From Isosphaera pallida ATCC 43644 (GTDB taxonomy: Bacteria > Planctomycetota > Planctomycetia > Isosphaerales > Isosphaeraceae), in the NCBI RefSeq assembly GCF_000186345.1, contig NC_014962.1:4554450-4618449 (forward strand): a stretch of 64,000 bases of DNA, read 5' to 3'. Numbering within the stretch: the stretch's first letter is position 1; the number at the start of each line of letters is the position of its first letter. This document shows, piece after piece, positions 41,016 to 64,000 of the stretch. Position numbers and translations under genes: made by a program. Under the pieces are notes generated by a model. That model saw only the letters and a list, made by a program, of their open reading frames with translations, did no database searches and had not been told where the DNA came from.

Positions 41016-41288
41016 AGGTGAGCCTCCAGGCGAAAACGATCCTGGACCACCCGACGCTTCCGAACTTCGTCCCGCCCCGCTTCGCGTCGTATGCGACTCG
41101 TTTGATTTCGTTCCATTTCAGGCAGGGCGGGTCGCCGAGGGGAGGTTGAGCGTCTAGAATCAATGCGTGGCCTCAACCGATCGAACCACGCGCAGGTATC
41201 CCTCCAGTCGAACACGACGGACGCCTAGCGCGGTGATCGCGCGAGCCTTGGCTGCGTCCAACGCTCCGTTGATGGACCTCGCGCATTG

Positions 41289-42086
41289 ATGTTCAGGTTG
41301 CCCACCTCGCGTTTGTTCGCTCTCCCTGAGCCGGTTCGAGACCGTCAGGCCGAATGGATGGATCAAGCCGGCTTGGATCCGTTGGAACATCGTCGCGCTC
41401 TGCGTGGCCTGGCGCGGATCAACGCCGTGAGCGGCTCTGGGCGGGCCATTCTGTCCGAACTAACCAAGCTAGCGCGCCGTTTGGGGCCACCTCGCCCGTT
41501 GCGGATATTGGATCTGGCCTGCGGCGGCGGTGATGTGGCTTTGGACCTGGCGCGTCGAGCCCCGCGTCGGGGGCTTTCAGTGGTGGTCACCGGCATCGAC
41601 CGCGCTGCCGAGGCGATCGCCCTGGCCCGCGAACAGGCGGCCCGCGCTGGTCTGAGTAACTGCCTCCACTTTGAGACCGCCGACGTTCTGAGCGACCCCT
41701 GGCCCCGGGCTCCTCGCACCTTCGGCGACACTTGTTCCATCAAGGATGATGGGCGGTTTGATGTCGTTACGTGTTCGCTCTTTCTCCACCATCTCGACGA
41801 GTCGGACGCGACCCGATTGCTGACCCGCATGGCGGCCGAAGCGGCCCATCTGGTTTTGGCTGACGATCTGGAACGCTCTCGTCTTGGCTGGGCTGTAGCC
41901 TGGGTCGGCACCCGCCTGCTGTCCCGCTCGCCCATCGTCCACCTCGATGGTCCCCTGTCGGTGCGGGGTGCCTTCACCCTAGCCGAAGCCGCGGAGCTCG
42001 CCAACCGCGCGGGTTGGCGACGGATCGTGGTTCGCCGCCGCTTTCCGTTTCGCTACATTCTCAGCGGCGAGGTGTCCTCAACATGA
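41289..42086 (+). CDS. Class I SAM-dependent methyltransferase of a type III PKS cassette
   Basis: 265 residues. Motif I is ILDLACGGGDVALDLARRA, followed by VTGIDRAAEAIALAREQA and a motif with VTCSLFLHHLDESDATRLL, typical of UbiE-like methyltransferases. The C-terminal part (GAFTLAEAAELANRAGWRR) also fits. Its TGA overlaps the ATG of the flavoprotein gene (ATGA), so the three genes to 44644 are a tight operon. It probably methylates the polyketide product; the target atom is unknown. Confidence 0.85.
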   Translation: MFRLPTSRLFALPEPVRDRQAEWMDQAGLDPLEHRRALRGLARINAVSGSGRAILSELTKLARRLGPPRPLRILDLACGGGDVALDLARRAPRRGLSVVVTGIDRAAEAIALAREQAARAGLSNCLHFETADVLSDPWPRAPRTFGDTCSIKDDGRFDVVTCSLFLHHLDESDATRLLTRMAAEAAHLVLADDLERSRLGWAVAWVGTRLLSRSPIVHLDGPLSVRGAFTLAEAAELANRAGWRRIVVRRRFPFRYILSGEVSST

Positions 42087-43429
42087 CGAATGCGAACACG
42101 AAGAGGAGTTGGGAAACCGAGGCGTCAACAGCGTCAACCTTCACGTCAACGTCGCCTTCGGCGCTGCCAGGAGCGGCCTACGACGCCGTCGTGGTGGGGG
42201 CGGGTCCCGCCGGCTCGGTCACGGCAATGGGGTTGGCTGAGCGGGGTTGGTCGGTGGCTCTGATCGATCGCGCGACGTTCCCACGGTCCAAGGTCTGTGG
42301 CTGCTGCCTCAATCAACACGCCCTCTCGACCCTCCAGACCCTGGGACTGGCCGACGTAACCGCCGACGCTCCCGTGCTGGATCGGTTCCGCCTGGTGGTA
42401 GGCGGAGGGGGACGCCTCGACTTGCCGTTACCTCCCGGCCGCTCCTTGTCGCGGATGGTGTTCGACCAACGTCTGATCGATCACGCGCGACGACGCGGGG
42501 TCCACTTCCTGGAGCGAACCACCGCTCGCCTTGAGCCGTTGGAGCCCGTCGCGGCTCCTGGTTCAGTCGCTTCGCCGTGGCGGCGGTTGCGATTGCGTCA
42601 AGATGGGGAGGTCGCCGACGCAGAACCACGGGAATTCCTGGTGATGGCTCGGGTCGTGGTTGCCGCCGACGGTTTGGCGGGCCGCCTCGCGGCCGATGAG
42701 CCGGGGATGGCTGTCGTCACGCGGGCCGACTCTCGAATCGGGGCCGGCCTAGTGGTTGACGCCGCAACCTTGGGTGGAGCTGGTCCCGAACCTGGCCAGA
42801 TTCTCATGGTTCTGGGTCGAGCCGGTTACGTCGGCCTGACTTTGTTGGAGGATGGTCGGGTTGATCTGGCCGCCGCGCTGGATCCTCAGGCCGTCAAGCG
42901 CGCGGGGGGAGTGGGCCGGGCGGTCCTCACCGTGTTGCGGGCCGCCGGGCTTGCCGCGCCCGAAGAGTTGGCGCTGGCTCCTTGGCGGGGCACCCCCGCG
43001 TTGACCCGTCGTCGTCGTCCCTGGGGCCGGCGGATTGTCGCGGTGGGGGACGCGGCGGGCTATGTCGAACCCTTCACCGGCGAGGGCATGGCTTGGGCGG
43101 TCGCCTCGGCCGCGCTGGTGGTTCCCTTGCTGGATGAGGCGTTGCGCCTCTCTGGTTACGCGGGGGCCGCGGGCGGGGAGTCGGACTGTTGGCCCGCTGA
43201 GGTCGGACCGCGTTGGGAAGCGCTTCATCATCGCCTGATCGGGCGTCGTCAACGAGTCTGCCGAGTGCTAAGCCGCGTGTTGCGTCATCCGCCCGCCGTG
43301 GCCGGGGTGCGACGGTTGGCGGTTCGTTGGCCTGGGACGTTGCGTCCTCTGACCCAGAGTCTGAACCATCCCACCGCGCCGCTTGCGAGCGTCGCGCCCC
43401 CCTCAGGAGCGGCCGCCGCGTCGTCTTGA
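42083..43429 (+). CDS. FAD-dependent oxidoreductase (geranylgeranyl reductase-like/monooxygenase)
   Basis: 448 residues. The FAD-binding motif YDAVVVGAGPAGSVTAMGLA lies near residues 33-52, followed by SKVCGCCLNQHAL, a Cys-containing motif of the geranylgeranyl-reductase-related flavoproteins. The second FAD motif is RRIVAVGDAAGYVEPFTGEG. Low-complexity residues 1-30 precede the domain. Between a methyltransferase and a type III polyketide synthase it is likely to hydroxylate or oxidise the aromatic product, comparable in logic to the flavoprotein SrsC in Streptomyces srsABC. Start by ATGA overlap with the preceding gene. Confidence 0.85.
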   Translation: MTNANTKRSWETEASTASTFTSTSPSALPGAAYDAVVVGAGPAGSVTAMGLAERGWSVALIDRATFPRSKVCGCCLNQHALSTLQTLGLADVTADAPVLDRFRLVVGGGGRLDLPLPPGRSLSRMVFDQRLIDHARRRGVHFLERTTARLEPLEPVAAPGSVASPWRRLRLRQDGEVADAEPREFLVMARVVVAADGLAGRLAADEPGMAVVTRADSRIGAGLVVDAATLGGAGPEPGQILMVLGRAGYVGLTLLEDGRVDLAAALDPQAVKRAGGVGRAVLTVLRAAGLAAPEELALAPWRGTPALTRRRRPWGRRIVAVGDAAGYVEPFTGEGMAWAVASAALVVPLLDEALRLSGYAGAAGGESDCWPAEVGPRWEALHHRLIGRRQRVCRVLSRVLRHPPAVAGVRRLAVRWPGTLRPLTQSLNHPTAPLASVAPPSGAAAASS

Positions 43430-43432
43430 TCC

Positions 43433-44644
43433 ATGAACGCGCCTTCCTGCCACGTCTCCCGCCAGGGGACTGAGCCGTTGGAGTCCGCCAGCGACGCCCC
43501 CACTGCGCCCCCCCCCGGTGGGATGGGGTTTGTGATCGAGGGATTGGGGACCGCTCTGCCCCAAGGGCGGCTTGAACAGGCTCAAACCGCCCGCGCCCTG
43601 GCGCGGATCAGCGGAAGCGATCCCGCTAAATACGCCGCGCTCTTTCGTCGCGCCAACATCCAAGCCCGTCACTTCGCCCTGCCGCCCGACGTCCTAAGCG
43701 ACCTGGTGGAGGGAACGACCCACACCGACTCCCCCTTCGTTCCCCGGCCTGGTTCAGATCAGGATGGGCCCTCAACCGGTCAACGGATGAAAGCCTATAG
43801 CCAATTCGCGCCTGAGCTGGCTTTGCGGGCGGCTCGAATCGCCCTGGAGGAAGCCGGGGTCGCTCCCGAGACAGTCGCTCACCTGATCACGGTCTCCTGC
43901 ACAGGATTCGCCGCGCCGGGGGTCGATCTGGCGTTGATTGAAGGGTTGAACCTGCCGCGCCAGGTCCAGAGGCTGCACGTGGGATTCATGGGGTGCCACG
44001 GAGCCGTCAACGCTCTGAGAACCGCCCGGGGGCTGGCGGCGGTGGAGGAAGATCCCCAAGCGCGTCTGCTGACGGTGGCCGTCGAGTTGTGTTCCATCCA
44101 CTTTCGCAGCCGTCCCGACCCGCGCTCGGTGGTGGCCAACGCCTTATTCGCCGATGGAGCCGCCGCGGTGGTGGGTCGCGGCGAACGCCACGCGACCGCG
44201 GCATCGTTGCCCACGGGATCGGGCTATCGGGTGGTCGATGGAGGAGCCATGTTGTTTCCAGGCACCGCTGAGGCCATGACCTGGACCATCGGCGACCACG
44301 GCTACGAGATGACGCTGGACCCGCGTGTGCCGGAGTGGATCGGCGCTCATCTGCGGCCCTGGCTGGAACCGTGGCTGGCGCGGCGGGGTCTGGGTCTAGA
44401 GTCGATCGGCTCCTGGGCGGTTCATCCCGGCGGTCCCCGAGTGCTGGACGCCACCGCTGAAGCACTGGGATTGCCGAGCGAGGCGTTAGCGGTCTCGCGG
44501 CAAACCCTCGCTGAACTCGGCAATCTCTCTTCACCCACCATTTTGTTTTTGCTGGAGCGTCTGCGTCGCAGGTCCGCGCCCCGTCCCGTGCTGGCCCTGG
44601 GATTCGGTCCCGGCTTGGCCGCCGAGGTGTTGCTGTTGGAATGA
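43433..44644 (+). CDS. Type III polyketide synthase (chalcone/stilbene synthase family)
   Basis: 403 residues, normal family length. The Cys-His-Asn triad is visible: C188 in VGFMGCHGAVN, H331 in SWAVHPGGPRVLD, and N364 in ELGNLSSPTILF. The C-terminal FGPGLAAEVLLLE matches the GFGPG motif of the family. It condenses malonyl-CoA units onto a starter acyl-CoA to make an aromatic ring (resorcinol, pyrone or phloroglucinol type); starter and product cannot be read from sequence. The ATG is 3 bases after the flavoprotein stop. Confidence 0.95.
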   Translation: MNAPSCHVSRQGTEPLESASDAPTAPPPGGMGFVIEGLGTALPQGRLEQAQTARALARISGSDPAKYAALFRRANIQARHFALPPDVLSDLVEGTTHTDSPFVPRPGSDQDGPSTGQRMKAYSQFAPELALRAARIALEEAGVAPETVAHLITVSCTGFAAPGVDLALIEGLNLPRQVQRLHVGFMGCHGAVNALRTARGLAAVEEDPQARLLTVAVELCSIHFRSRPDPRSVVANALFADGAAAVVGRGERHATAASLPTGSGYRVVDGGAMLFPGTAEAMTWTIGDHGYEMTLDPRVPEWIGAHLRPWLEPWLARRGLGLESIGSWAVHPGGPRVLDATAEALGLPSEALAVSRQTLAELGNLSSPTILFLLERLRRRSAPRPVLALGFGPGLAAEVLLLE

Positions 44645-44715: not shown

Positions 44716-46173
44716 TCAGTTCGGACCCGCAGGCGCGTCCGCCCGCGGAGGTAGGGGCGACACGCGGGGGCTGTCATAACCCTGGGGAAACGCTAGGAAT
44801 TCGACCAGACGATCAAGGAGCGACTCTAGGTCGGCGGCGTCTTCAACGGCGATGACACGCGAGGTAGCGCGGGCGTCGTCGCCCAGGGTGGCGAGATTGA
44901 GATACAGGCGAGCCAGGCGATCCCAATCGCGCGCGCGAATCCGGTCACCTTGGGCTTGCCCCGGATCCAAAAGGCGTCGCGCTTGGTTGAGGTGATCCCG
45001 AATCAGAGCAACCGAATCGAACGAGGTCCCAAAGGGGTCGGCGTCCATCGTCTTGAGGAGGTTGGCGATCGCGCTCCGCGCTTCGCGGACATGTCCGCGA
45101 ATGGCGTCGGGGTTGGGGTCGTCCGATTCCATTTGCTCGCGCAATGCCTTCAACGTCTCTTCAACGTCCAGGAAGGTGGTTTCGGCGTCCCAAAGCAAGG
45201 AGGAGGCGTACCAGCTTCCCCAGTCAAGTTGGCCGGGCCGGCGCCGCGACTTGGTTCGGTCAGACAAGGAAAGAGTGAACGCAGGCAACCCGGCGAGGTT
45301 GGTGTGGCAGGAAAAGCAATTGTACTCGGAGAGCTCGGGCCAACGGGGATTGGTCGAGTCGGCGCGGGCCATGAGCAAGTTGAGGGCGGCGTCGAGCGCG
45401 ACAAGCCGGCCCACCACAGCATCGCGGAGCGGGCGGCGGTCCTGGTCAAGCGTAGGACGCCAGTGAGTGGGCCAGTCGTGGCGATCACCAGCGAAGTCGA
45501 AGTGGAGACGCGGATGACCCGCGGCGATCAGGTCGTGATCGACCTGGCGGGTGGCGTCGCCCACATGGCAGCCTAAGCAGGATTCGGCCTGGAGCCGGGC
45601 GGGGTGGAGAGGGCGGGGTTTGAAACGCTCGTGGTCTTTGTGCTGGGGACGAGCGTGGGGCACCAGCCAGTTGCGAGCTGGGCCGTGGCAGCTCTCACAG
45701 CCGATCCCGCCGCCGAACCAGGACCGATGCGCTTCCGGCGAAAGGTCAACCGGAGCCTCGGGCAACGCATGGCAACCCAGGCAATCCCCGCGCTGGTAGG
45801 GACGGTTGGCGGTGTGATTCCAAGCGTGGAAAATGCGCTGCGAACGAGATGAGTCCAAGGTGTCGTAGGCATGGGCGTGCGGATCGTTCCGAGCGTAACG
45901 GGTCCACTCGCCACCGTTGATTTCGAGAGCGACTACGTCGCCGTGGCAACCCCGCCGCCCACAGGAGAAGTCGCCGACGTATCCGGCCCGGGTCAAGATC
46001 GCCTCGGGGTCGTCGAGCGCAGGGTCAGTTCCAGTCGTGTGGGAAACCCGCGTGGTGGTCCAACGCGGAGTCGAACCGATTTCCTGCGGTTCCCACCCTC
46101 CGCCAAGCAACCAGACCGCGGTTCCCAGAAACGCGACTCGCGGGATTCGACTCCAACGCTTCGGCAGGATCAT
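44716..46173 (-). CDS. Periplasmic multihaem cytochrome c, c554-like
   Basis: 485 residues. An N-terminal signal or anchor (IPRVAFLGTAVWLLGGG) precedes YVGDFSCGRRGCHGDVV, where the first haem motif is CX4CH (C71-C76-H77). Four normal CxxCH motifs follow (CLGCH, CESCH, CLGCH, CFSCH) with many His as possible distal ligands. The spacing resembles the cytochrome c554 family of electron-transfer proteins. The C-terminal 200 residues are helical without haem motifs. GAGGTGATC, a full anti-16S match, lies just upstream of ATG 46173. It is divergent from the NADH-oxidising gene cluster and may act in the same chain. Confidence 0.87.
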   Translation of the reverse strand: MILPKRWSRIPRVAFLGTAVWLLGGGWEPQEIGSTPRWTTTRVSHTTGTDPALDDPEAILTRAGYVGDFSCGRRGCHGDVVALEINGGEWTRYARNDPHAHAYDTLDSSRSQRIFHAWNHTANRPYQRGDCLGCHALPEAPVDLSPEAHRSWFGGGIGCESCHGPARNWLVPHARPQHKDHERFKPRPLHPARLQAESCLGCHVGDATRQVDHDLIAAGHPRLHFDFAGDRHDWPTHWRPTLDQDRRPLRDAVVGRLVALDAALNLLMARADSTNPRWPELSEYNCFSCHTNLAGLPAFTLSLSDRTKSRRRPGQLDWGSWYASSLLWDAETTFLDVEETLKALREQMESDDPNPDAIRGHVREARSAIANLLKTMDADPFGTSFDSVALIRDHLNQARRLLDPGQAQGDRIRARDWDRLARLYLNLATLGDDARATSRVIAVEDAADLESLLDRLVEFLAFPQGYDSPRVSPLPPRADAPAGPN

Positions 46174-46738
46174 AAGATCACCTCTCCCAGACTCGCTCAC
46201 GCTGGGGCGACGGCTCGCCGACCCGCCCCAGGCGTCACGCTTGAAATCGGGTCCGACTTCCCGAGCCGCGCTTCTTGTTGCTCCATCCAGGTCCAAGGTA
46301 ACCCGAACCGAAGAGGCGAGCAATCGAGAGCCAGACGGCTTCCGATTCGTCGGGACTTCTTCCTGTCAAATCGCTTCCAACTTGATTGATTTTTTCCTAA
46401 TCGCGTTTTCTCCCGTCTTTTTGGTCCTGGTGTACGGTTTGGGGTTGAATGACGTCGCGTGGCGAGCTGATAATCGGCGGAGAGGCAAATGGTCGCAGTG
46501 GATTGGTCAAGGCAAGGCAAGTGGAGTGTCCAACCGCCGCAATAGGCGGGATCGGGTCCGCGGGCGCGGTGATCGTCAACCGTCAACCTGCTCCGATGCC
46601 ACGGTTCGCATGGGAGATTGACCTTTCCACCTTCGCCTTGCTTCGTTTCACCGCGCGGGTTCACCCGCTCCTTCGCCGTGGTTCGGCTCTACCACCAGGC
46701 CGTTCCTTTTGGCCGATGATCACTCAGGAAATCGTTCT
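46174..46738. promoter_or_regulatory. Divergent promoter region of the electron-transfer genes
   Basis: About 565 bp between the c554-like gene and the NuoEF-like gene. It includes a T-rich stretch at about 46382-46425. A TTGACA on the minus strand (about 46356-46361) has no good -10 at the right distance. I see no coding frame with support. Confidence 0.4.
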
Positions 46739-48454
46739 ATGATCGTTCAGGAACTCAACGCAATCCAACAGAAGTTCGGTTATTTGCCCGAGGAGGAGTT
46801 GCGGGCGTTCTCGAAACGGTCGCAGATTCCGATGTATCGTCTGCATGAGGTGGCCAGCTTCTTTCCTCATTATCGGTTGAAACCCCCGGCCACTGGCACA
46901 GTACTGATCTGCCGCGACCTCGCCTGCCACCTGGCCGGAGCGTCGCGCCTGCTGCAAACCCTCAAAGCCACTGCGCGGGAGACCGACGAGCGAATCGAGG
47001 TCGGCGGCGTCAGCTGCCTGGGCCAGTGCGACCGCGCTCCAGCCCTCCTGATCAACGACCAAGTGATTTGGGGCCAAACCGAGTCGCAACTGCGAGCCTT
47101 GACCCGAGACTCGGTCCACCAGCGCACCCGTGGGGTCCATGACGAGCTGGACAAGGGACCAACCGGCTGGCAGATCGACCCCTACGAAGGCCAACCACGC
47201 TACGAGGCGGTCGGTCTGATGCTTGATGGCGAATTATCCCCCGAGAAGATGATTCAGGAGTTGGAACTCTCCGGCCTCTTCGGTCTGGGCGGAGCTGGCG
47301 GTGCCACCCACGGCAAATGGAGCGAGGTCCGCAAGGAACCCGGTGCCACCAAGTACATTGTTTGCAACGCCGACGAATCCGAACCCGCCGCTTTCAAGGA
47401 CCGCGAACTTCTGCTCCGCGTCCCTCACTTGGTCATCGAGGGGATGACGCTGGCAGCCCTCACGGTAGGGGCTGAAAAAGGGTATCTTTACATTCGTCAC
47501 GAATATCACGATCAAATCGCGGCGGTCGAGGCGGCGCTGGCGGAGGCCCGCGAGCGGGGGATTCTCGGTCAGAGGATTCTGGGAAGCGATCGCACATTCG
47601 AGTTAGAAGTATTCATCAGTCCGGGCGGTTACATTTGCGGCGAGCAAACAGCGTTGTTGGAGGCGATGGAGGATCGTCGGGCCGAGCCGCGCAACCGGCC
47701 ACCCCAACCGATGAAGGCCGGTCTGTGGGGCTGCCCGACGGTGCTGAACAACGTCGAGACCTTGGCGTGGACCCCGGCGATCGCGTTGAAGGGGGGTAAG
47801 TGGTACGCGGGGCTGGGGGTCAACGGGGCGACTGGAATGCGGTTCGTCTCGATCAGCGGCGACGTGAAACGTCCGGGGGTGTACGAGTTGCCCTTCGGCG
47901 GCACGGTGGGGGAACTCATCAAGCACGCCGGGGGTCTCAAGGGAACTCAGAGTGTCCAGGCAATCGCGCCCTCGGGACCCTCGGGCGGCTTTCTGCCGGC
48001 GAGGCTGCGGGTCGACCAGGTGTCCCGCAAGTTTGCCGAACGGTTCTTCACTGGGGGACGGACCGAAATGTCGATCCTCGACCTGCCGCTGGACAAACCA
48101 ACGATGCGGATGCTCGATGTGCCGCTGTTGTCGGCGGTGGTGGTGATCGGTTCGGAGGCCAACCTGCTGGACCTGGCCAAAAACTGCCTGGAGTTTTACC
48201 GCAACGAGTCGTGCGGCAAGTGCGTCCCCTGTCGGATCGGCAGCCAAAAGCTGGTCGAGATCGCCGAGGATCTAATCCAACACCACGGGGCGATGTCGCC
48301 TCAGCGCGCCGAGGCGATCGACGACCTGGCCACGGCGATGATTCAAACCTCTATCTGCGGCCTGGGTCAGGTCGCGCCCCTGCCGCTGACAACCCTGATG
48401 ACGTATTTCCCCAATTTGTTCCGGAAAACCGACTTGCCGAAGACACGATCCTGA
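46739..48454 (+). CDS. NuoE-NuoF fusion NADH dehydrogenase (diaphorase) subunit
   Basis: 571 residues. Residues 1-125 are a thioredoxin-like NuoE domain with [2Fe-2S] ligands C58, C63, C93 and C97 in the normal C-x4-C/C-x3-C pattern. Residues 150-571 are NuoF: VCNADESEPAAFKDREL (NADH/FMN site), GGYICGEQTALLEAMED, an SLBB segment, and the [4Fe-4S] ligands C492, C495, C498 (ESCGKCVPCRIGS) and C540. The FMN loop reads GLGGAGGATHGKW instead of the usual GRGGAGFPTGLKW. AGGAAA lies 7 bases upstream of ATG 46739. This is the HoxF/FdsB architecture, but no hydrogenase or formate dehydrogenase gene is nearby; the next gene supplies the downstream iron-sulfur chain. Confidence 0.9.
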   Translation: MIVQELNAIQQKFGYLPEEELRAFSKRSQIPMYRLHEVASFFPHYRLKPPATGTVLICRDLACHLAGASRLLQTLKATARETDERIEVGGVSCLGQCDRAPALLINDQVIWGQTESQLRALTRDSVHQRTRGVHDELDKGPTGWQIDPYEGQPRYEAVGLMLDGELSPEKMIQELELSGLFGLGGAGGATHGKWSEVRKEPGATKYIVCNADESEPAAFKDRELLLRVPHLVIEGMTLAALTVGAEKGYLYIRHEYHDQIAAVEAALAEARERGILGQRILGSDRTFELEVFISPGGYICGEQTALLEAMEDRRAEPRNRPPQPMKAGLWGCPTVLNNVETLAWTPAIALKGGKWYAGLGVNGATGMRFVSISGDVKRPGVYELPFGGTVGELIKHAGGLKGTQSVQAIAPSGPSGGFLPARLRVDQVSRKFAERFFTGGRTEMSILDLPLDKPTMRMLDVPLLSAVVVIGSEANLLDLAKNCLEFYRNESCGKCVPCRIGSQKLVEIAEDLIQHHGAMSPQRAEAIDDLATAMIQTSICGLGQVAPLPLTTLMTYFPNLFRKTDLPKTRS

Positions 48455-48565: not shown

Positions 48566-50938
48566 ATGAACGCACCCGTTTCCAACGTCAACGGAACCCA
48601 GCTGTCCACGCTCCGTGTCACCATCGACGGTCAGCCGATCGAGGTCGCCGCGGGGACCACGATCTTGGAAGCGGCCCGTCGTCTAGGAATCGATATTCCC
48701 ATTTTGTGCCACCGCGACGACCTACGCGGGGTGGGGGTCTGCCGAGTGTGCGCTGTGGAGGTCAAAGGGGCGCGGACGATGGCTGCCGCCTGCGTCCGCC
48801 CCGTCGAGAACAACATGGAGGTCTCGACTCACCACACCAGCGCCAAGGTGAACCGCTCGGTGGCGACGCTGTTGGAATTGCTGATCACCGACAACCTGGT
48901 GGCGCGTCGTCCCGACCATAAGTTCGGCGAAAACGAACTGGAGACGCTGGCGCGTCGGTTCGGGGTGACCGGGCGGCTCAACGCCAAGGTCGCCGGAGCG
49001 GCGACCCGATTCCCGGCCCCAACAACCAACCGGGGCCAGGATTTCTCCTCACCGATCATCGCGGTGGACCACAACGCCTGCATTCTTTGCGATCGTTGCA
49101 TTCGAGCGTGCAACGATCTCAAGGCGAATCATGTGATGGGACGGATGGGCAAGGGGTATCAATCCCGGATCGCCTTCGACCTGGACCAGCTGATGGGCGA
49201 ATCCTCCTGCGTGGCGTGCGGCGAGTGCATGGTGGTTTGCCCCACCGGAGCACTGGCGCACAAAGGGTTCGTCAAGCCAGAGGTGCTGGAGGGCCAGGTC
49301 GATCCCAAGAAGCGGGTTCGCCCGGCGACCGCCGAGGAACTGGCGGCCCATCCCCTGTTCCAGGGGGTCTCGGCCCAGTTCCTCAAATGGAACGAGGGGG
49401 CGGTGGTGCGGCGGTCCTACAAGGCCGGCGAGGTGATCTGCCGCGAAGGAGAGTACGGACGAACCGCCTTCTACATCGAGGAAGGCGAGGTCGAAATCTT
49501 TCTCGCCACCCAAATGGGACGAGTCGCCAACCGGCCCCGCAAGGGCAAGCTGCTGGGGCTGTTCCCCACCCTCTCCTTCGGCGGACGGCTCGAGACGGCT
49601 CCCCGTCTCGGTTCGGGCGATCACGACCCCGACCGCTTCATCCACATCGACGCCCCAGTGTCTCTGGAAACCTGCCACCCGGTCGCCACCCTGGAAAAAG
49701 GCGAGCTGTTCGGCGAACAGGCGGTCCTCACCAACCAGCCCCGCAGCGCCACTGCCCGTGCCCGAACCGACGTGGTGGTCTTGGAGATGCTCCGCAACGT
49801 GGTCTACATGCTGCGACGCAACAAAGCCTACCGCGAATTGATCGACTCCAAGTTCGTCAAGCGAACCCTGGCCAACTTCGTCCAGTCGCTGCCGATGTTC
49901 ATGGACCTCACCCGCAACAACGAACAAACCGCCTTTCTCGTAGGCTATCTGCTGCCACGGGTCGAACTGGTCCGGCTCGACCCCGGCGCGGTGATTTTCC
50001 GCCAGGGCGACCAGGCCGAAGATTTTTACATGGTGGCGCGGGGATTCGTGAAAGTCGCGCAACGCACCGCCGCCGGCGAACGGATCCTCAACTATTTGGG
50101 CAAAGGATCGTTCTTCGGCGAAATCGGCCTGCTGGCCGGCTTCGAGGAGGTGCGCGAGCTGGCCCCCAACGGCGTCCGCACCGCCACTTGCTCAGCGCTC
50201 GATCATGTGGATCTCATCAAAATCTCGCACAACCACTTCCGAACGATCATGCGGGAGTTTCCCAACGTGCGGCGCTTCCTGCTGAACACCGCGGTGGAAC
50301 GGCTCAAAGAGCAGGCCGAACACCTCAGCCGTCTGGAGAGTCGGCCTCTAGCCGCGTTCCTGGAACAAGGTTTGATGGAGGCGCAAAGCCTTCTGGTGCT
50401 AGACCTTGAAAAATGCACCCGGTGTGACGAATGTACTAAGGCCTGTTCTGACTCGCACGAGGGCGTCACGCGGCTGATCCGCGAGGGGTTGCGGTTCGAC
50501 CGCTTCCTAGTGGCGAGCTCCTGCCGCAGTTGCCTGGACCCGACCTGCCTGCCCGCCTGCCCAGTGGACGCGATCAACCGTAACGGCAAAAGTCTGGAAA
50601 TTCGTATCAAGGATCACTGCATCGGCTGCGGCAAGTGCGCGGAAAACTGTCCCTACGGCAACATCAACATGGTTGAACTCGAACCGCCGCGCCGCAAGCG
50701 CGACGCCGAACTGACCACCGCCGAGGAGGTGGTCCTGCCCCGTCGTTCCTTTGAGACGGAGGAGGCCGACCCCACCGGACGACGGGTCGCGCGGGGACCG
50801 CTCAAGGCGACCACCTGCGACCTTTGCTCCAGCTACGACGGCATCCCCAGTTGCGTTTACGCCTGCCCCCACGACGCGGCCCACCGCATGAAAGGTCAGG
50901 AGCTCTTGGACCTCGTGGCCGCGGCCCGACGGGTTTGA
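48566..50938 (+). CDS. Iron-sulfur/cyclic-nucleotide-binding fusion protein (NuoG-like N-terminus, two cNMP domains, four-cluster ferredoxin)
   Basis: 790 residues. The order is: [2Fe-2S] ferredoxin with C48, C59, C62 and C76 (GVGVCRVCAVEVKG); two [4Fe-4S] motifs C172/175/178/182 and C215/218/221/225; a first cNMP-binding domain (about 265-425) with an intact-looking phosphate cassette FGEQAVLTNQPRSATA; a second (about 440-575) with FGEIGLLAG and RTATCS; then a DmsB/NrfC-type ferredoxin with sixteen Cys in four groups (C617-627, C653-665, C685-695, C751-767). The NuoG N5 (His-Cys3) ligands between the first two regions are missing. Total capacity is seven clusters. The protein has no signal peptide, so it is cytoplasmic. 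It should take electrons from the NuoEF-like subunit, possibly gated by a nucleotide, and pass them to the membrane. Confidence 0.92.
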   Translation: MNAPVSNVNGTQLSTLRVTIDGQPIEVAAGTTILEAARRLGIDIPILCHRDDLRGVGVCRVCAVEVKGARTMAAACVRPVENNMEVSTHHTSAKVNRSVATLLELLITDNLVARRPDHKFGENELETLARRFGVTGRLNAKVAGAATRFPAPTTNRGQDFSSPIIAVDHNACILCDRCIRACNDLKANHVMGRMGKGYQSRIAFDLDQLMGESSCVACGECMVVCPTGALAHKGFVKPEVLEGQVDPKKRVRPATAEELAAHPLFQGVSAQFLKWNEGAVVRRSYKAGEVICREGEYGRTAFYIEEGEVEIFLATQMGRVANRPRKGKLLGLFPTLSFGGRLETAPRLGSGDHDPDRFIHIDAPVSLETCHPVATLEKGELFGEQAVLTNQPRSATARARTDVVVLEMLRNVVYMLRRNKAYRELIDSKFVKRTLANFVQSLPMFMDLTRNNEQTAFLVGYLLPRVELVRLDPGAVIFRQGDQAEDFYMVARGFVKVAQRTAAGERILNYLGKGSFFGEIGLLAGFEEVRELAPNGVRTATCSALDHVDLIKISHNHFRTIMREFPNVRRFLLNTAVERLKEQAEHLSRLESRPLAAFLEQGLMEAQSLLVLDLEKCTRCDECTKACSDSHEGVTRLIREGLRFDRFLVASSCRSCLDPTCLPACPVDAINRNGKSLEIRIKDHCIGCGKCAENCPYGNINMVELEPPRRKRDAELTTAEEVVLPRRSFETEEADPTGRRVARGPLKATTCDLCSSYDGIPSCVYACPHDAAHRMKGQELLDLVAAARRV

Positions 50939-51532: not shown

Positions 51533-52339
51533 GTGGTGGCCTCGACCACGCAATTTGAATTGGCACTGGAGTTGATCCGACCAGGCGACGTGATTGGTCT
51601 GGGAACCGGCCGCGCCGCCCAGGCGTTCCTCGTCGAACTGGCTCGAAAAGTTCAAGAGGGTCTGGAGATCCGGGGCGTCGCCACCTCTCAGCGCACCGAG
51701 GCGTTGGCTCGAACTCTGGGGATTCCCCTGATCGAACTCGACGAGGTGGAAACCGTCGATTTGACGGTGGACGGAGCCGACGAAATCGCCCCCAACCTCG
51801 ATCTCATTAAGGGTCTGGGCGGGGCGCTGATTCGGGAGAAGATGGTGGCCGCCGCCTCGCGGCGGTTCGTGGTGGTGGCCGGTCCCGGCAAGGAGTTCGA
51901 CCGTCTGGGAGGACGAGGTGTCCTGCCGGTAGAGGTGGTGCCCTTCGCGGTGGAGCATCTCCGGCGTCGCCTGCTCAAAATGGGCTTCGACTCCCGGCCC
52001 CGCATGGCCAAGGTCGGCGCTGAGTGGTTCCGCCGCGGCCTGGAGGGGCTGTTCCTCACCGACAACGGCAACCCCCTCCTGGAAGTCGCGGTCACCCCCG
52101 ACCAACTGGCCAATCCTCACGAGGTTCAGCGCCAATTGCACGACCTGCCGGGCGTGGTGGGCACCGGCCTGTTCCTGGGTATGGCCCAGGTCGCTTTGAT
52201 CGGCCCCAACCCGGTCGATTCTCAGGAATCCAGCGCGGAAATCGCCCGCGTCCCATCGCCCGACTTTGCCAACAACTACCCCCTCCGCATCTTGACCGCG
52301 CCCGGCGTGGATTGGGATCAATTCCGCGCCCGTCCCTGA
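51533..52339 (+). CDS. rpiA: Ribose-5-phosphate isomerase A
   Basis: 268 residues. It interconverts ribose-5-phosphate and ribulose-5-phosphate in the pentose phosphate pathway. Motifs are VIGLGTGRAAQAF (phosphate loop), TVDGADEIAPNLDLIKGLGG with the catalytic Asp, and ALIREKMVAAAS with catalytic Lys/Glu; the C-terminal DLPGVVGTGLFLGMA also fits. RpiA is usually about 220-230 residues; the extra length is mainly at the C-terminus. Two adjacent GTG codons (51533, 51536) are possible starts, with GGGAG about 8 bases upstream. It interrupts the electron-transfer gene set without an obvious functional link. Confidence 0.93.
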   Translation: MVASTTQFELALELIRPGDVIGLGTGRAAQAFLVELARKVQEGLEIRGVATSQRTEALARTLGIPLIELDEVETVDLTVDGADEIAPNLDLIKGLGGALIREKMVAAASRRFVVVAGPGKEFDRLGGRGVLPVEVVPFAVEHLRRRLLKMGFDSRPRMAKVGAEWFRRGLEGLFLTDNGNPLLEVAVTPDQLANPHEVQRQLHDLPGVVGTGLFLGMAQVALIGPNPVDSQESSAEIARVPSPDFANNYPLRILTAPGVDWDQFRARP

Positions 52340-52487: not shown

Positions 52488-53672
52488 GTGTTGCTCGATC
52501 GCGCCAATCTGCTCCATCGCGCCGACCGCCCGCAACGGACCGGTATCCAAACCATCCACGCGGTTTGGATCGCGGTGGCTCTCACCCTGTTCGTTCTCTC
52601 GACGCTCTGGTACGCCACCGCCTCGCTAGCCGCCGGGCGTCTGCTGGGCGGCTCCAGTCTCCCAGGGTTGACCCTAGGCATTCTGGGTGGAGCAATCATC
52701 CTGTTCGAGTTCCTGTTGGGTTGGCGCAAGTCGAATCGAGTTCGACGGTTCGGCCGGGTCAAAACCTGGATGGCCGGTCACATCTGGCTTGGCCTCGTCA
52801 GCCTGCCTTTGATTCTGCTCCACTGTGGAATTGTCCACTGGGGCGGGGAATTGACCACGATCTTGATGGTTCTGATGATCGTCGCGGTGGCCAGCGGGGT
52901 CTATGGTCTGATCTTGCAAAACCGCATCCCCCGAATGATGCTCCGCGAACTCAGCGCCGAGACGATCTACTCCCAGATTCCCCGCCAAGCCGCCCTCAAC
53001 ATGGTCGAGGCTGACCATCTGGTGCTGGCGGTGTGCGGCCCTCCCGAACCAGTTCCCAACGACGACTCCGCGGCGAACTCAAGCGGTCAATCGGCCGCTC
53101 ACCCCCTTGTCGATCGGTTGCCCCGCTTCGCTCCCGACGCTGAGAACTCTGAGGAGGAACGCGACCGCGACCTGCTGGTCAGCCCCGAGACCGCCGCCTT
53201 CCTGACCGTCAGCTCGTCGCAGTCGTTCGGCAACATCAAGGGACGAGTCGTCCGCACCCGCGCCCAGACCGCCCTGCTTCCCGAAGCCGAACCGCTGCGC
53301 GGCTTTTACGAAACGATAGTCCGTCCCTACTTGCGGTTGGGCAACGGTTCCATGCCCGCCGAGAACTGGGAGCCGGTCCAAGCGTCCCGTGGTTCTCGTC
53401 GCTCTCGCCGTCCCCGCCGCGCTACGATCTCCCCGCTGGCTGATCCCCAACGCGCCTCGGAACTCCTCGCCCAACTCAAAACCAAGCTCCCCACTGCTGC
53501 CCACGAGGTGGTTGACCGGCTGGCCGATCTGGTCGACCAACGCCGCCAGTTCGACCGCCAGGCCGTTTTACATCGTCGGCTCCACTCCTGGTTGGGACTT
53601 CATCTGCCGGTCTCGACGGCGTTAGTTGTACTGATGTTCGTTCATATCTATTACGCAGTTTTTTCCTGGTGA
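52488..53672 (+). CDS. Predicted di-haem b membrane protein
   Basis: 394 residues, five membrane helices. TM1-TM2 lie near 22-48 and 59-78, TM3 near 97-117 and TM4 near 121-144. A roughly 210-residue soluble, charged loop follows, then TM5 at the C-terminus (about 370-393). TM3 has H98 and H112, and TM5 has H372 and H386, each pair 14 residues apart. This H-x13-H geometry on two helices matches bis-His ligation of two stacked b haems across a membrane (as in ferric reductases and NADPH oxidases). GAGGTGAT lies 7 bases before the GTG start. Its stop region holds the ribosome site of the ten-haem cytochrome gene, so both are in one operon. I do not know a named family for it. Confidence 0.78.
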   Translation: MLLDRANLLHRADRPQRTGIQTIHAVWIAVALTLFVLSTLWYATASLAAGRLLGGSSLPGLTLGILGGAIILFEFLLGWRKSNRVRRFGRVKTWMAGHIWLGLVSLPLILLHCGIVHWGGELTTILMVLMIVAVASGVYGLILQNRIPRMMLRELSAETIYSQIPRQAALNMVEADHLVLAVCGPPEPVPNDDSAANSSGQSAAHPLVDRLPRFAPDAENSEEERDRDLLVSPETAAFLTVSSSQSFGNIKGRVVRTRAQTALLPEAEPLRGFYETIVRPYLRLGNGSMPAENWEPVQASRGSRRSRRPRRATISPLADPQRASELLAQLKTKLPTAAHEVVDRLADLVDQRRQFDRQAVLHRRLHSWLGLHLPVSTALVVLMFVHIYYAVFSW

Positions 53673-53680
53673 GGCACGCG

Positions 53681-55453
53681 ATGGCTCAACATTCGGCCCG
53701 CCCAGTTCCCGACGCCAACCTAGCCGCTCCGGCGACGACCGGCAAGAAACGGACCGCGCGGATTCCGTTGGATTACTACAAACGCGGCGACGACCTGAGC
53801 CGTTCCCGCAAGCGGCTGCTGTTGCTGGCGTTGCTCGCGGCCGTCGGCTACATCGCGGTGGGCGAAGCGGCCCGACGCGGGCCGCGTGGCGGCTCGGCCG
53901 GCGGGTTTGGCCTACCGGTCGCTTGGTCGGCCACTGCGCGGATCAATCATGGACCCGTCCACGCCGTCCACGCCTCGTTCGAGCATCGTTGCGACGCCTG
54001 CCACGGACCTTCTCCCAACTCCGGCGGCGGGGATCCTGACCGAATCCTTCCCAACGACCCTTGGCGGGTGGCCAACGAAAAATGCCTCGATTGCCACGCG
54101 GGGCCGGTCCATCATGCCAACATGACGAAAACCGACAAGCAAGCGGGACAGCGTTGCGGCGAGTGTCACCGCGATCACCAGGGACGCGACGCCAACCTGA
54201 CTGCTATGGCCGATGCGGCCTGTCTGACGTGTCACGCCAATCTCAAGCCTCACCTTGGGTCGGGCCACCCCAAGGCAATCCAACCCAACTCGGTGGTCGT
54301 GACCGGATTCATGGCCGGTGGTCATCCCGACTTCAATTTGCCCAAGACCGACGACTCGGGACTCAAGTTCAACCACGCCCTACACATGGCCCCCGGCCTG
54401 GGTCAGGGCTATCGACTCAAGCCGCCCTACGAAGGACGCTACGCCGTCAACGACTCCGGCCAGGTTCAACTCGAATGCGCGTCGTGTCACGTCATTGAAC
54501 GTGACGATCTCAACGTCAAGGGTCTTCCCGCCGCCGTGGCCGACTCGGTGGCCCCCACCATCGAGGCAGCCCGTGAGTTCGTCCGCATCGACTACCAACG
54601 GCATTGCGTCGCTTGCCATGAAACCACGGTCGATGTCGTCACCGGAGATGACGACGGCAACCAACCCCGCCCGTTGAGGGTTCCCCACGGTTGGAACATG
54701 AGTGAGATCCGTTCGTTCCTCAAAGGAGCGATCGCCGCCGATCTGCTCCGAACCCACCCCGACCTCGACAAGCCCCGACCCCGCCGGATGCCTGGCGCAA
54801 GGTCCGACGCCGCTGCCGCGACCACCACGCTCCGAGCCGAACGCGATCGTCGGGTCCGCGAGGCCGAAGCCCGTTTGCACGGCACCAACGGGGCCTGCGT
54901 CACGTGTCACCGCTACACCCGCGAGGATGGCAAGACCAAGTTGGTCCTAACCGCCGCCGATCTCGACACGTCCGGCCTCCCCTCATGGGACGTGGAACGC
55001 CCCAAAGTGCCCGACGTCTGGCTTCCTCACGGCCGGTTCAACCACACCGCCCACCGCGCCTTCGACTGTCGCGGTTGCCACGCTCAAGCCTATGGGCCGT
55101 CCGAGCAGGACCTCGCGGCGGGATTCCACCTCTTCCAATCCGACGACGCCAACAAGATTGGCGACGGCGCGGTCATGATCCCGCCGATCAAAACCTGCTA
55201 CCAATGTCACTTCAATCACGACGGTTCCAACGCGGTAGCCCTCTCGCTCCTACCCAGCTCCTGGATGCAGGGTTTGCTCGGCACGACGATCTCTTCGGCC
55301 CCCCGCGGCGTCCGCAACAATTGCACCGAGTGCCACGGCTACCACAACCGCACTCATCCCCTTCAGGGACCGGGTGCCGAAGTCCACGCGCCTGAAACGC
55401 GCCAGGCAATCGAGAGCTGGATCGGCCTGCACGGGGTTTCCGCGTCTCCCTGA
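53681..55453 (+). CDS. Membrane-anchored ten-haem cytochrome c
   Basis: 590 residues from MAQHSARPVPDANLAAP; GGTGAGG lies 6-7 bases upstream. A GTG at 53669 overlapping the previous stop is the alternative. A basic cytoplasmic segment and one N-terminal helix (KRLLLLALLAAVGYIAVGEA, about 50-65) anchor it, with the rest in the periplasm. Ten CxxCH motifs are present in order: CDACH, CLDCH, CGECH, CLTCH, CASCH, CVACH, CVTCH, CRGCH, CYQCH, CTECH. Many extra His (for example FNHTAHRAFDCRGCH) could be distal ligands, as in cytochrome c3/c7-type modules. It probably receives electrons from the di-haem b protein encoded just upstream. Confidence 0.9.
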   Translation: MAQHSARPVPDANLAAPATTGKKRTARIPLDYYKRGDDLSRSRKRLLLLALLAAVGYIAVGEAARRGPRGGSAGGFGLPVAWSATARINHGPVHAVHASFEHRCDACHGPSPNSGGGDPDRILPNDPWRVANEKCLDCHAGPVHHANMTKTDKQAGQRCGECHRDHQGRDANLTAMADAACLTCHANLKPHLGSGHPKAIQPNSVVVTGFMAGGHPDFNLPKTDDSGLKFNHALHMAPGLGQGYRLKPPYEGRYAVNDSGQVQLECASCHVIERDDLNVKGLPAAVADSVAPTIEAAREFVRIDYQRHCVACHETTVDVVTGDDDGNQPRPLRVPHGWNMSEIRSFLKGAIAADLLRTHPDLDKPRPRRMPGARSDAAAATTTLRAERDRRVREAEARLHGTNGACVTCHRYTREDGKTKLVLTAADLDTSGLPSWDVERPKVPDVWLPHGRFNHTAHRAFDCRGCHAQAYGPSEQDLAAGFHLFQSDDANKIGDGAVMIPPIKTCYQCHFNHDGSNAVALSLLPSSWMQGLLGTTISSAPRGVRNNCTECHGYHNRTHPLQGPGAEVHAPETRQAIESWIGLHGVSASP

Positions 55454-62031: not shown

Positions 62032-64000
62032 TCAGCGTCGAGGCGCGGCCTCCGCAGGCAGCGTGGAGGGGGTAGGCGAGCCACCCTCCAGAGCCGACTT
62101 GGACAGACTGCTTCGATAAGCCCGCACTCGGTCGCGGAGTGCCGCGGGGATGTTGCCCCGTAACCCTTCGGAGAGGCCCCTCACGTTATCCTGCGGCAGA
62201 GTTCCGCCGGCGCGGTTGGTGCGGGTACTGATCGTCGAGCCAGGACCGGTTCCCGGCACCGTGCGGTTGGGGTCGAAGGTCGGTTCCGGTCCCGTTGCCT
62301 GTGCGTCGATTTCACCGCCGGGCAAGGCTTGGCGCTGAGGAGCCCCCTCATAACGCTTGACGAACTGCTCCAAAGCCTGACGAGACAATCCAGTGTCACG
62401 TTCGAGTTGGCGGAGTTCGTCGGGGTTGGAAAGAGCTTCTTTCAAGCGTCTTAGGTTGACCGGGTTCTTGGTGGTGTCGGGAGCCACCGGGGAAGGGCCG
62501 GTGTTGGGAGGCTCACCAGGATTGACCCGCGCCGCGTCGGGATCAAGTTGCCGCTCCTTAGGCTGGAACGGGTTATCGCCCGGCTCGCGGTTCGGCATCC
62601 CTCCCGACTTGGAGTCAGCCCCCCGCCCCGGTTGGTCGGACGGTTCTCCATCTGGAGCCTGGCCTTGGTCTGGTTGCCCACCCTGACGACCCGGCTGGTT
62701 GGCCTGTCCCTCTCCCGGCTGGTTGGGTTGACCCTGCCCTGGTTGATTGACCCGCTGTTGCCGACCTCCTGACTCGCCGGACGGATTGGGTTGTCCCTCC
62801 GACTGACCTTTCGGATCGCCCTGGCCACCACGCTCCTGCTGAGCTTTGGGATCAGCTTGGCGATCGTTCATCTGCTCAGTTCGCTCGCCCTGACCCTGAC
62901 CACCACGCTCCTGCTGAGCCTTGGGATCAGCTTGGCGATCGTTCATCTGCTCAGCACGCTCGCCCTGGCCCTGACCGCCACGCTCCTGCTGAGCTTTGGG
63001 ATCAGCTTGTTGAGCTTGACCACCACGCTCCTGCTGAGCTTTGGGATCAGCTTGGCCCTGACCGCCACGCTCCTGCTGAGCTTTGGGATCAGCTTGGCGA
63101 TCGTTCATCTGCTCAGTTCGCTCGCCTTGACCCTGACCACCACGCTCTTGCTGAGCTTTGGGATCAGCTTGTTGAGCTTGACCGCCACGCTCTTGCTGAG
63201 CTTTGGGATCAGCTTGACCCTGACCACCACGCTCCTGCTGAGCTTTGGGATCAGCTTGGCGATCGTTCATCTGCTCAGTACGCTCGCCCTGGCCCTGACC
63301 ACCACGCTCCTGCTGAGCCTTGGGATCAGCTTGACCCTGACCGCCACGCTCCTGCTGAGCTTTGGGATCAGCTTGGCGATCGTTCATCTGCTCAGTACGC
63401 TCGCCCTGGCCCTGACCACCACGCTCCTGCTGAGCCTTGGGGTCAGCTTGTTGAGCTTGGCCGCCCCGCTCCTGTTGAGCTTTGGGATCGGCTTGGCGAT
63501 CGTTCATCTGCTCAGCACGCTCGCCCTGGCCCTGACCACCACGCTCCTGCTGGGCTTTGGGATCAGCTTGTTGAGCTTGGCCACCACGCTCCTGCTGAGC
63601 TTTGGGATCGGCTTGGCGATCGTTCATCTGCTCAGTTCGCTCGCCCTGACCCTGACCACCACGCTCCTGCTGAGCCTTGGGATCAGCTTGGCGATCGTTC
63701 ATCTGCTCAGTACGCTCGCCCTGGCCCTGACCACCACGCTCCTGCTGAGCCTTGGGATCGGCTTGGCGATCGTTCATCTGCTCAGCACGCTCGCCTTGAC
63801 CCTGACCACCACGCTCCTGCTGAGCTTTGGGATCGGCTTGGCCCTGGCCACCACGCTCCTGTTGAGCTTTGGGATCAGCTTGTTGAGCTTGACCGCCACG
63901 CTCTTGCTGAGCTTTGGGATCAGCTTGACCCTGACCACCACGCTCCTGCTGAGCTTTGGGATCAGCTTGGCGATCGTTCATCTGCTCAGTTCGCTCGCCT
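62032..64000 (-). CDS. Gln/Gly-rich tandem-repeat protein, C-terminal part (runs off right edge)
   Basis: At least 655 residues are visible with no start in view; the frame continues past the edge. The visible N-terminal 390 residues are 20 copies of ADPKAQQERGGQ, separated by GQ or AQQ, or by GQGERTEQMNDRQ/GQGERAEQMNDRQ. A second low-complexity zone follows (Pro/Gln/Gly, about 80 residues). Then comes a folded-looking segment, LRRLKEALSNPDELRQLERD with TGLSRQALEQFVKRYEG, and a basic tail ending LPAEAAPRR. The repeat is highly hydrophilic, charged and likely unstructured. The folded segment resembles C-terminal domains of large planctomycete coiled-coil/envelope proteins, but I cannot name a family. 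Confidence 0.8.
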   Translation of the reverse strand, partial: GERTEQMNDRQADPKAQQERGGQGQADPKAQQERGGQAQQADPKAQQERGGQGQADPKAQQERGGQGQGERAEQMNDRQADPKAQQERGGQGQGERTEQMNDRQADPKAQQERGGQGQGERTEQMNDRQADPKAQQERGGQAQQADPKAQQERGGQGQGERAEQMNDRQADPKAQQERGGQAQQADPKAQQERGGQGQGERTEQMNDRQADPKAQQERGGQGQADPKAQQERGGQGQGERTEQMNDRQADPKAQQERGGQGQADPKAQQERGGQAQQADPKAQQERGGQGQGERTEQMNDRQADPKAQQERGGQGQADPKAQQERGGQAQQADPKAQQERGGQGQGERAEQMNDRQADPKAQQERGGQGQGERTEQMNDRQADPKAQQERGGQGDPKGQSEGQPNPSGESGGRQQRVNQPGQGQPNQPGEGQANQPGRQGGQPDQGQAPDGEPSDQPGRGADSKSGGMPNREPGDNPFQPKERQLDPDAARVNPGEPPNTGPSPVAPDTTKNPVNLRRLKEALSNPDELRQLERDTGLSRQALEQFVKRYEGAPQRQALPGGEIDAQATGPEPTFDPNRTVPGTGPGSTISTRTNRAGGTLPQDNVRGLSEGLRGNIPAALRDRVRAYRSSLSKSALEGGSPTPSTLPAEAAPRR
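62816..64000. repeat. Coding tandem repeats of 42, 45 and 75 bp
   Basis: On the plus strand the unit reads CCACGCTCCTGCTGAGCTTT then GGGATCAGCTTG, followed by a variable linker. All unit lengths are multiples of 3, so the minus-strand frame stays open. Twenty core units are in the window, with only synonymous or near-synonymous differences, indicating recent expansion or gene conversion. Confidence 0.92.

Follow-up and report, generated by a model that had tools for sequence, protein, structure and literature searches.

A single reading frame in the genome of the hot-spring planctomycete Isosphaera pallida ATCC 43644 joins seven Fe-S sites and two cyclic-nucleotide-binding (cNMP) domains in one polypeptide, and it raises the question of whether a cyclic nucleotide might govern the passage of electrons through a protein and, if so, between which partners those electrons would pass. 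The frame opens with an ATG at position 48566, on the + strand of the window (the whole stretch of 64,000 nucleotides of DNA that was analysed, chromosome positions 4554450-4618449). A Pfam domain search agreed with the preliminary description of this DNA in placing both cNMP domains between an Fe-S head and a four-cluster Fe-S tail, and the parts of the protein are arranged as follows:

48566..50938, + strand: fusion protein, 790 aa, with Fe-S head, two cNMP domains and four-cluster Fe-S tail (open reading frame, Pfam and 82 full-length relatives)
48608..49270, + strand: head, residues 15-235, with a 2Fe-2S site and two 4Fe-4S sites, HoxU/HydA/FdhA-like
48893..48943, + strand: region from which the N5 His-Cys3 ligands have been lost, about residues 110-126
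49331..49840, + strand: cNMP domain 1, interrupted by an insertion, about residues 256-425
49709..49756, + strand: phosphate-binding cassette 1, FGEQAVLTNQPRSATA, residues 382-397 (E384 and R393 each in 82 of 82 relatives)
49901..50341, + strand: cNMP domain 2, about residues 446-592
50114..50188, + strand: phosphate-binding cassette 2, FGEIGLL...RTAT, residues 517-541 (E519 in 82 and R538 in 81 of 82 relatives)
50390..50890, + strand: tail, about residues 609-775, with four 4Fe-4S motifs, DmsB/ArrB-like

This domain content is a direct observation. In particular, Pfam places Fer2_4 at residues 15-89, two Fer4 sites at residues 166-230 and dicluster ferredoxins in the tail, and cNMP_binding (PF00027) scores 133.8 bits, the cut-off being 27.5 (E = 2.1e-39), its match falling into three stretches because an insertion splits cNMP domain 1. 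The seven Fe-S sites, which the preliminary description had counted correctly, correspond to 28 Cys residues, also seen directly: C48/59/62/76, C172/175/178/182 and C215/218/221/225 in the head, and C617/620/623/627, C653/656/661/665, C685/688/691/695 and C751/754/763/767 in the tail. In 82 full-length relatives, which are about half identical to the I. pallida protein, all 28 are essentially invariant, with C754 as the exception (79 of 82) and with gaps in two rows of the alignment at the first four. The near invariance of these residues indicates that the fusion is real and old. Homologues that existed only as separate proteins, with the fusion as an assembly artefact, would have told against it; the genome is closed and the 82 full-length relatives carry the same fusion, which rules out an artefact. 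That the conserved fusion, and the operon described below, are real is in our judgement virtually certain.

The head, which had been called NuoG-like, does contain a 2Fe-2S site and two 4Fe-4S sites, but its two 4Fe-4S ferredoxin motifs bring it closer to HoxU, HydA and FdhA than to NuoG. The fusion falls below the cut-offs of the equivalog profiles for NuoG (TIGR01973, 104 bits against 470), HoxU (NF005745, 157 against 333) and DmsB (TIGR02951, 43 against 214). The loss of the N5 His-Cys3 ligands, noticed previously in I. pallida, extends throughout the family: none of 83 proteins (the I. pallida fusion and its relatives) has the full H-x3-C-x2-C-x5-C motif. The region holds no Cys at all in 22 of them, the I. 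pallida fusion included, and at least two Cys in an incomplete motif in 46, mostly as a His and two Cys, the middle position being Gln or Glu; in 12 of the 83 the middle Cys has become His. Loss of N5 is a trait of the family that is seen at several stages and is complete in the I. pallida fusion.

In CRP, PKA and PKG, the Gly-Glu and the Arg of the phosphate-binding cassette hold the cyclic phosphate and the ribose. The preliminary description was right that the first cNMP domain of the fusion keeps such a cassette, but overlooked a second intact one, which a short insertion interrupts. Together with the Glu and Arg residues given above, G383 is kept in 81 and G518 in all 82 of the full-length relatives, and we regard the presence of intact cassettes, itself directly observed, as well supported. 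Among proteins of solved structure, those closest in sequence to the cNMP pair are cGMP-dependent kinases and the regulatory subunits of PKA. An AlphaFold2 model of the fusion, built from a 65-row alignment, had a mean pLDDT of 79.5, and in its cNMP parts the mean per 10-residue block was mostly 85-97, except in the domain 1 insertion. Consistent with the sequence matches, a Foldseek search with the modelled pair returned structures of PKG I beta with cGMP and of PKA-R; structure prediction, which had been proposed as a check, thus gave a confidently folded pair resembling the ligand-bound tandem domains of PKG and PKA-R. (Note that the insertion, at about residues 323-372, precedes cassette 1 and contains an IPIDAPVDL-like motif that is conserved in the family; its model confidence is low, and it is possibly a docking site.)

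A remote clade of headless relatives (about 30% identity), which consist of the cNMP pair and the tail, keeps the cassette of domain 1 and has lost the Glu of domain 2, its second cassette being degenerate, so that domain 1 looks, on sequence grounds, to be the core sensor. One class III cyclase, matching the catalytic domain well, was detected in I. pallida, and a cyclic-nucleotide ligand is therefore plausibly made there. Taking the cassettes and the matches to PKG and PKA-R into account, we consider it likely that the cNMP domains bind a cyclic nucleotide; the candidates would be cAMP and cGMP, between which the sequence does not discriminate. A CRP-family domain with a kept cassette may also serve another purpose. 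If the cNMP folds were ligand-free structural spacers or dimerisation modules, the degenerate cassette 2 of the remote clade and the large insertion in domain 1 would be readily accommodated, but a spacer needs neither Gly-Glu nor Arg, and their near-perfect retention in both cassettes across several phyla makes this reading highly improbable.

The preliminary description had also raised an evolved nucleotide site of the kind discussed for HoxI; the cNMP domains would then bind NAD(P)H or another nucleotide and reactivate the diaphorase. The analogy holds for the layout, given that HoxF is a fusion of E and F and that HoxU matches the head; HoxF, HoxU and HoxI make up the same set of parts, and HoxI has been described as an NADPH activation site (PMC3702609). 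However, HoxI reads GELGFIDQTPHS, with P-H-S, and hence a His, at the position of the cassette Arg, whereas the fusion family retains R393 and R538 as would be expected for a cyclic phosphate. An evolved HoxI-like site is for this reason the less likely half of the earlier analogy, and we think it improbable.

We scanned genome contigs with a profile made from a 16-row alignment of the cNMP-plus-tail part, which yielded 80 loci picked by likeness to the fusion and not by their neighbouring genes. These loci belong mostly to Planctomycetota and Acidobacteriota and also to Rokubacteria, with single records labelled Actinobacteria and Wallbacteria. The genes recurring in them, all four of whose kinds of product are encoded within the I. 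pallida window, are listed here together with rpiA:

44716..46323, − strand: tetrahaem c554-like cytochrome, divergent (linked in 55 of 80 loci)
46709..48454, + strand: NuoE-NuoF fusion, 581 aa, the NAD(P)H-oxidising partner as judged by its motifs (adjoins the fusion in 70 of 80 loci)
51533-52339: rpiA (ribose-5-phosphate isomerase), between the fusion and cytochrome b
52488..53672, + strand: five-helix membrane protein with four invariant His, a putative diheme cytochrome b (linked in 63 of 80 loci)
53669..55453, + strand: decahaem c-type cytochrome with an N-terminal membrane anchor (linked in 58 of 80 loci)

The NuoE-NuoF gene (NuoEF) lies upstream of the fusion; downstream come rpiA and small open reading frames, followed by the genes for cytochrome b and the decahaem cytochrome, the latter overlapping the former by four bases. 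NuoEF is on the strand of the fusion in all 70 linked loci, and the tetrahaem gene, which is upstream in I. pallida, is on the opposite strand in 50 of 55. Among the 41 loci that span 20 kb or more, NuoEF was found in 39, cytochrome b in 38, a decahaem-type c cytochrome in 36 and a tetrahaem c cytochrome in 34. These linkages are observed directly, and they widen the scope of the preliminary description, which had identified a real fusion but overlooked the electron-transfer system around it. (Elsewhere in the window, positions 41286-44644 encode a methyltransferase, an FAD-dependent oxidoreductase with weak similarity to tryptophan halogenase and a chalcone-synthase-like type III polyketide synthase, possibly a phenolic lipid or alkylpyrone pathway, and a 649-aa open reading frame at 62032-63981 on the − strand has no Pfam or NCBIfam match.)

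The FMN and NADH motifs and the N3 and N1a Cys residues are essentially invariant in 69 NuoEF relatives. In the membrane protein, H98 and H112 lie on one predicted transmembrane helix and H372 and H386 on another, all four invariant, as would be expected of a putative diheme b cytochrome that spans the membrane. It matches no Pfam family above cut-off, giving only weak hints of DUF4405 and of ferric-reductase-like proteins, and neither profile nor fold searches returned a solved relative. Reaction with quinones is known for many b-type diheme membrane anchors, and with no solved relative by which to judge this one, the tail might reduce quinone at cytochrome b, making the whole an unusual NADH:quinone or quinol-linked enzyme to which the multihaem cytochromes would contribute a separate step. 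We think this unlikely, since the genes for cytochrome b and the decahaem cytochrome form a close pair in almost every locus, those of headless relatives included, a pairing that suggests direct transfer between the two proteins. The conduit as such is well supported, and the system very probably carries out NAD(P)H-linked transmembrane electron transfer.

Our favoured interpretation, which we consider somewhat more likely than not, is that the fusion is the cytoplasmic wire of a cNMP-regulated NAD(P)H:periplasmic-cytochrome oxidoreductase. In this mechanism, NuoE-NuoF would take hydride from NAD(P)H onto FMN, and electrons would pass singly by way of N3 to the head clusters and on to the four-cluster tail of the fusion; the tail would hand them to the transmembrane diheme cytochrome b, and this in turn to the membrane-anchored decahaem and the tetrahaem c cytochromes, with no evident quinone step. 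The cNMP pair, which in the sequence stands between the entry and the exit clusters, would bind cAMP or cGMP through its canonical cassettes. In PKA and CRP, ligand moves the helices of the cNMP domains; in the fusion, the cyclic nucleotide could realign head and tail, bringing them close enough for electron transfer or moving them apart, and thereby turn the wire on or off. The near invariance of both cassettes across phyla strengthens the case for nucleotide gating, and we regard it as evenly balanced whether a ligand gates electron flow through the fusion.

The wire might also run inward, with periplasmic or extracellular donors reducing the cytochromes, NAD(P)H being made and the cNMP domains controlling the reverse flow. 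All parts are reversible in principle, and HoxFU-type diaphorases work in both directions (PMC3189943). The same gene linkage fits either direction. However, by established thermodynamics c-type cytochromes of the usual potential cannot reduce NAD+ without an input of energy, and a Pfam scan detected no ion-translocating arm in the operon. Moreover, I. pallida, by its published description a thermophilic chemoheterotroph and obligate aerobe (PMC3072084), has no evident lithotrophic donor. Inward flow therefore seems to us distinctly unlikely, and an outward direction reasonably likely.

Where outward-moving electrons would leave the system is suggested by two further genes. A protein of about 1250 aa with LVIVD repeats and 9-10 CxxCH motifs is encoded near the operon in 29 of the 80 loci, and a putative outer-membrane barrel, mostly of 600-900 aa, is encoded beside the LVIVD protein and near the operon in 22. 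Outer-membrane barrels end in an aromatic residue, as do nearly all of these candidates, from whose sequences we infer the barrel assignment. Of 294 Planctomycetota genomes, 26 have both the LVIVD multihaem protein and the cNMP-FeS core, where about 5 would be expected (Fisher p about 3e-19, a value that ignores the relatedness of the genomes). In many bacteria the chain would probably run on through the putative barrel and the LVIVD protein and end at an acceptor on the cell surface or beyond it. I. pallida itself has a putative barrel gene followed by one for a 9-haem LVIVD protein that is 58% identical to an acidobacterial one (locus L160, 5228-12549; G000:C2, about 4080227-4087548), but the pair lies about 0.5 Mb from the operon, in an organism described as an obligate aerobe, and both points count against a surface conduit there. 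A cell-surface acceptor is thus, for the family in general, a tentative proposal that falls somewhat short of an even chance, and for I. pallida it is less probable still.

Variants of the system bear on how electrons and signals might enter it. Headless members accompanied by cytochrome b and the decahaem cytochrome are common and lack an adjacent NuoEF gene, so that entry through NuoEF is not universal; on a tree, the distribution of the head fusion calls for roughly six changes, a number to which relatives truncated at contig ends contribute. In Sphingobium herbicidovorans, the conjugative plasmid pMSHV carries a distant cNMP-FeS homologue (L159, 7053-17497) in which a fused pyridine-nucleotide disulphide oxidoreductase domain replaces both the head and NuoEF, and the gene is followed by those for cytochrome b, a c3-type decahaem cytochrome and, further on, an LVIVD multihaem protein. 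(A plasmid search with the I. pallida cytochrome b gave no match, although this plasmid holds a divergent copy.) Of the comparative observations, the one that argues most strongly for electron exchange with NAD(P)H is that the same wire is found joined to either of two distinct NAD(P)H-type modules. Two other loci (L036, 8550-10562; L069, 8553-10745) encode an N-terminal FHA domain, which binds phosphothreonine, ahead of the two cNMP domains and the Fe-S tail, which gives this electron carrier a further type of signal input. Relatives occur in the cultured hosts Tautonia sociabilis, Neorhodopirellula pilleata, Rhodopirellula sallentina and Roseiconus nitratireducens, which makes the system testable.

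Regulation of respiratory and diaphorase complexes usually works through expression, redox state or substrate, and not through a second messenger within the path of the electrons. Were the cNMP domains to gate the wire, redox flux would come under the direct control of cyclic-nucleotide signalling, and the protein would be a ligand-gated redox wire with a logic like that of a ligand-gated ion channel; proof of gating would shift the system towards a new class. Its hosts, Acidobacteriota, Planctomycetota, Rokubacteria and, for the variant, Sphingobium, are common soil and water bacteria, many of whose multihaem cytochromes have no known role, and electrons from NAD(P)H would reach haems in the periplasm or at the surface by a path that seems to bypass quinones. 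The most far-reaching version of this proposal, a widespread quinone-independent conduit from NAD(P)H to the cell surface in which cAMP or cGMP gates an Fe-S wire through tandem cNMP domains, is possible, and we put it forward as speculation.

Each part of the system has counterparts elsewhere. Modules of the NuoE, NuoF and NuoG-like head type are shared with complex I (NuoEFG) and with BfuABC and HydABC, and among solved structures the head is matched best by HydA1 and FdhA; unlike these enzymes, the I. pallida operon has no Nuo membrane arm, H-cluster or molybdopterin domain, and the paper on BfuABC makes no mention of cNMP domains or cytochromes (PMC9304861). Separate NuoF and NuoG-like complex I genes occur elsewhere in the I. 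pallida genome, as do another NuoE-NuoF fusion (L161, 7191-8936) and a large protein whose head is HoxU/FdhA-like (L049, 8274-11519); the last two may be components of an NAD-linked formate dehydrogenase encoded at separate places. The tail, as the preliminary description recognized, agrees with the DmsB, ArrB and NrfC subunits in the order and spacing of its four [4Fe-4S] motifs. It differs from them in being C-terminal to cNMP domains, in lacking a catalytic molybdenum partner (none was found among the neighbouring genes scanned with Pfam and equivalog profiles) and in having as membrane partner an unclassified cytochrome b in place of DmsC or NrfD. With MtrCAB and the porin-multihaem systems of Verrucomicrobia (PMC5615132) the system as a whole shares an inner-membrane cytochrome and a periplasmic multihaem cytochrome and, where they take part, a putative barrel and a large surface-type multihaem protein; unlike those conduits, it is fed by NAD(P)H Fe-S modules and not evidently by quinol, its large multihaem protein has LVIVD repeats with 9-10 haems, and its putative barrel is unmatched to known porin families.

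Our search of the literature, which covered open-access papers and few of those behind a subscription, found no description of the fusion or the operon. The modules are all of known kinds; it is their arrangement, the invariant tandem cassettes within a wire and the conserved association of a NAD(P)H module with an unclassified cytochrome b and multihaem proteins that are undescribed in the literature found. The nearest known analogue is HoxF-HoxU-HoxI of Cupriavidus necator, in which HoxF is 30% identical to NuoEF, HoxU is 27% identical to the head of the fusion, and HoxI is a cNMP-fold protein encoded in the same operon. There, HoxU keeps H-x3-C-x2-C-x5-C, which is degraded in the fusion family, and HoxI is without the phosphate Arg, whereas in I. 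pallida the cNMP domains are two, are fused to the wire and have that Arg. (A hydrogenase-linked diaphorase in I. pallida was ruled out, its genome having no match to the NiFe hydrogenase large subunit, PF00374, in a search that covered hydrogenases of the NiFe type only.) The fusion moreover adds four tail clusters, from which electrons would go on to a cytochrome b in the membrane and to multihaem c cytochromes, and by analogy the system may work like a HoxFU-like diaphorase coupled to a new outlet.
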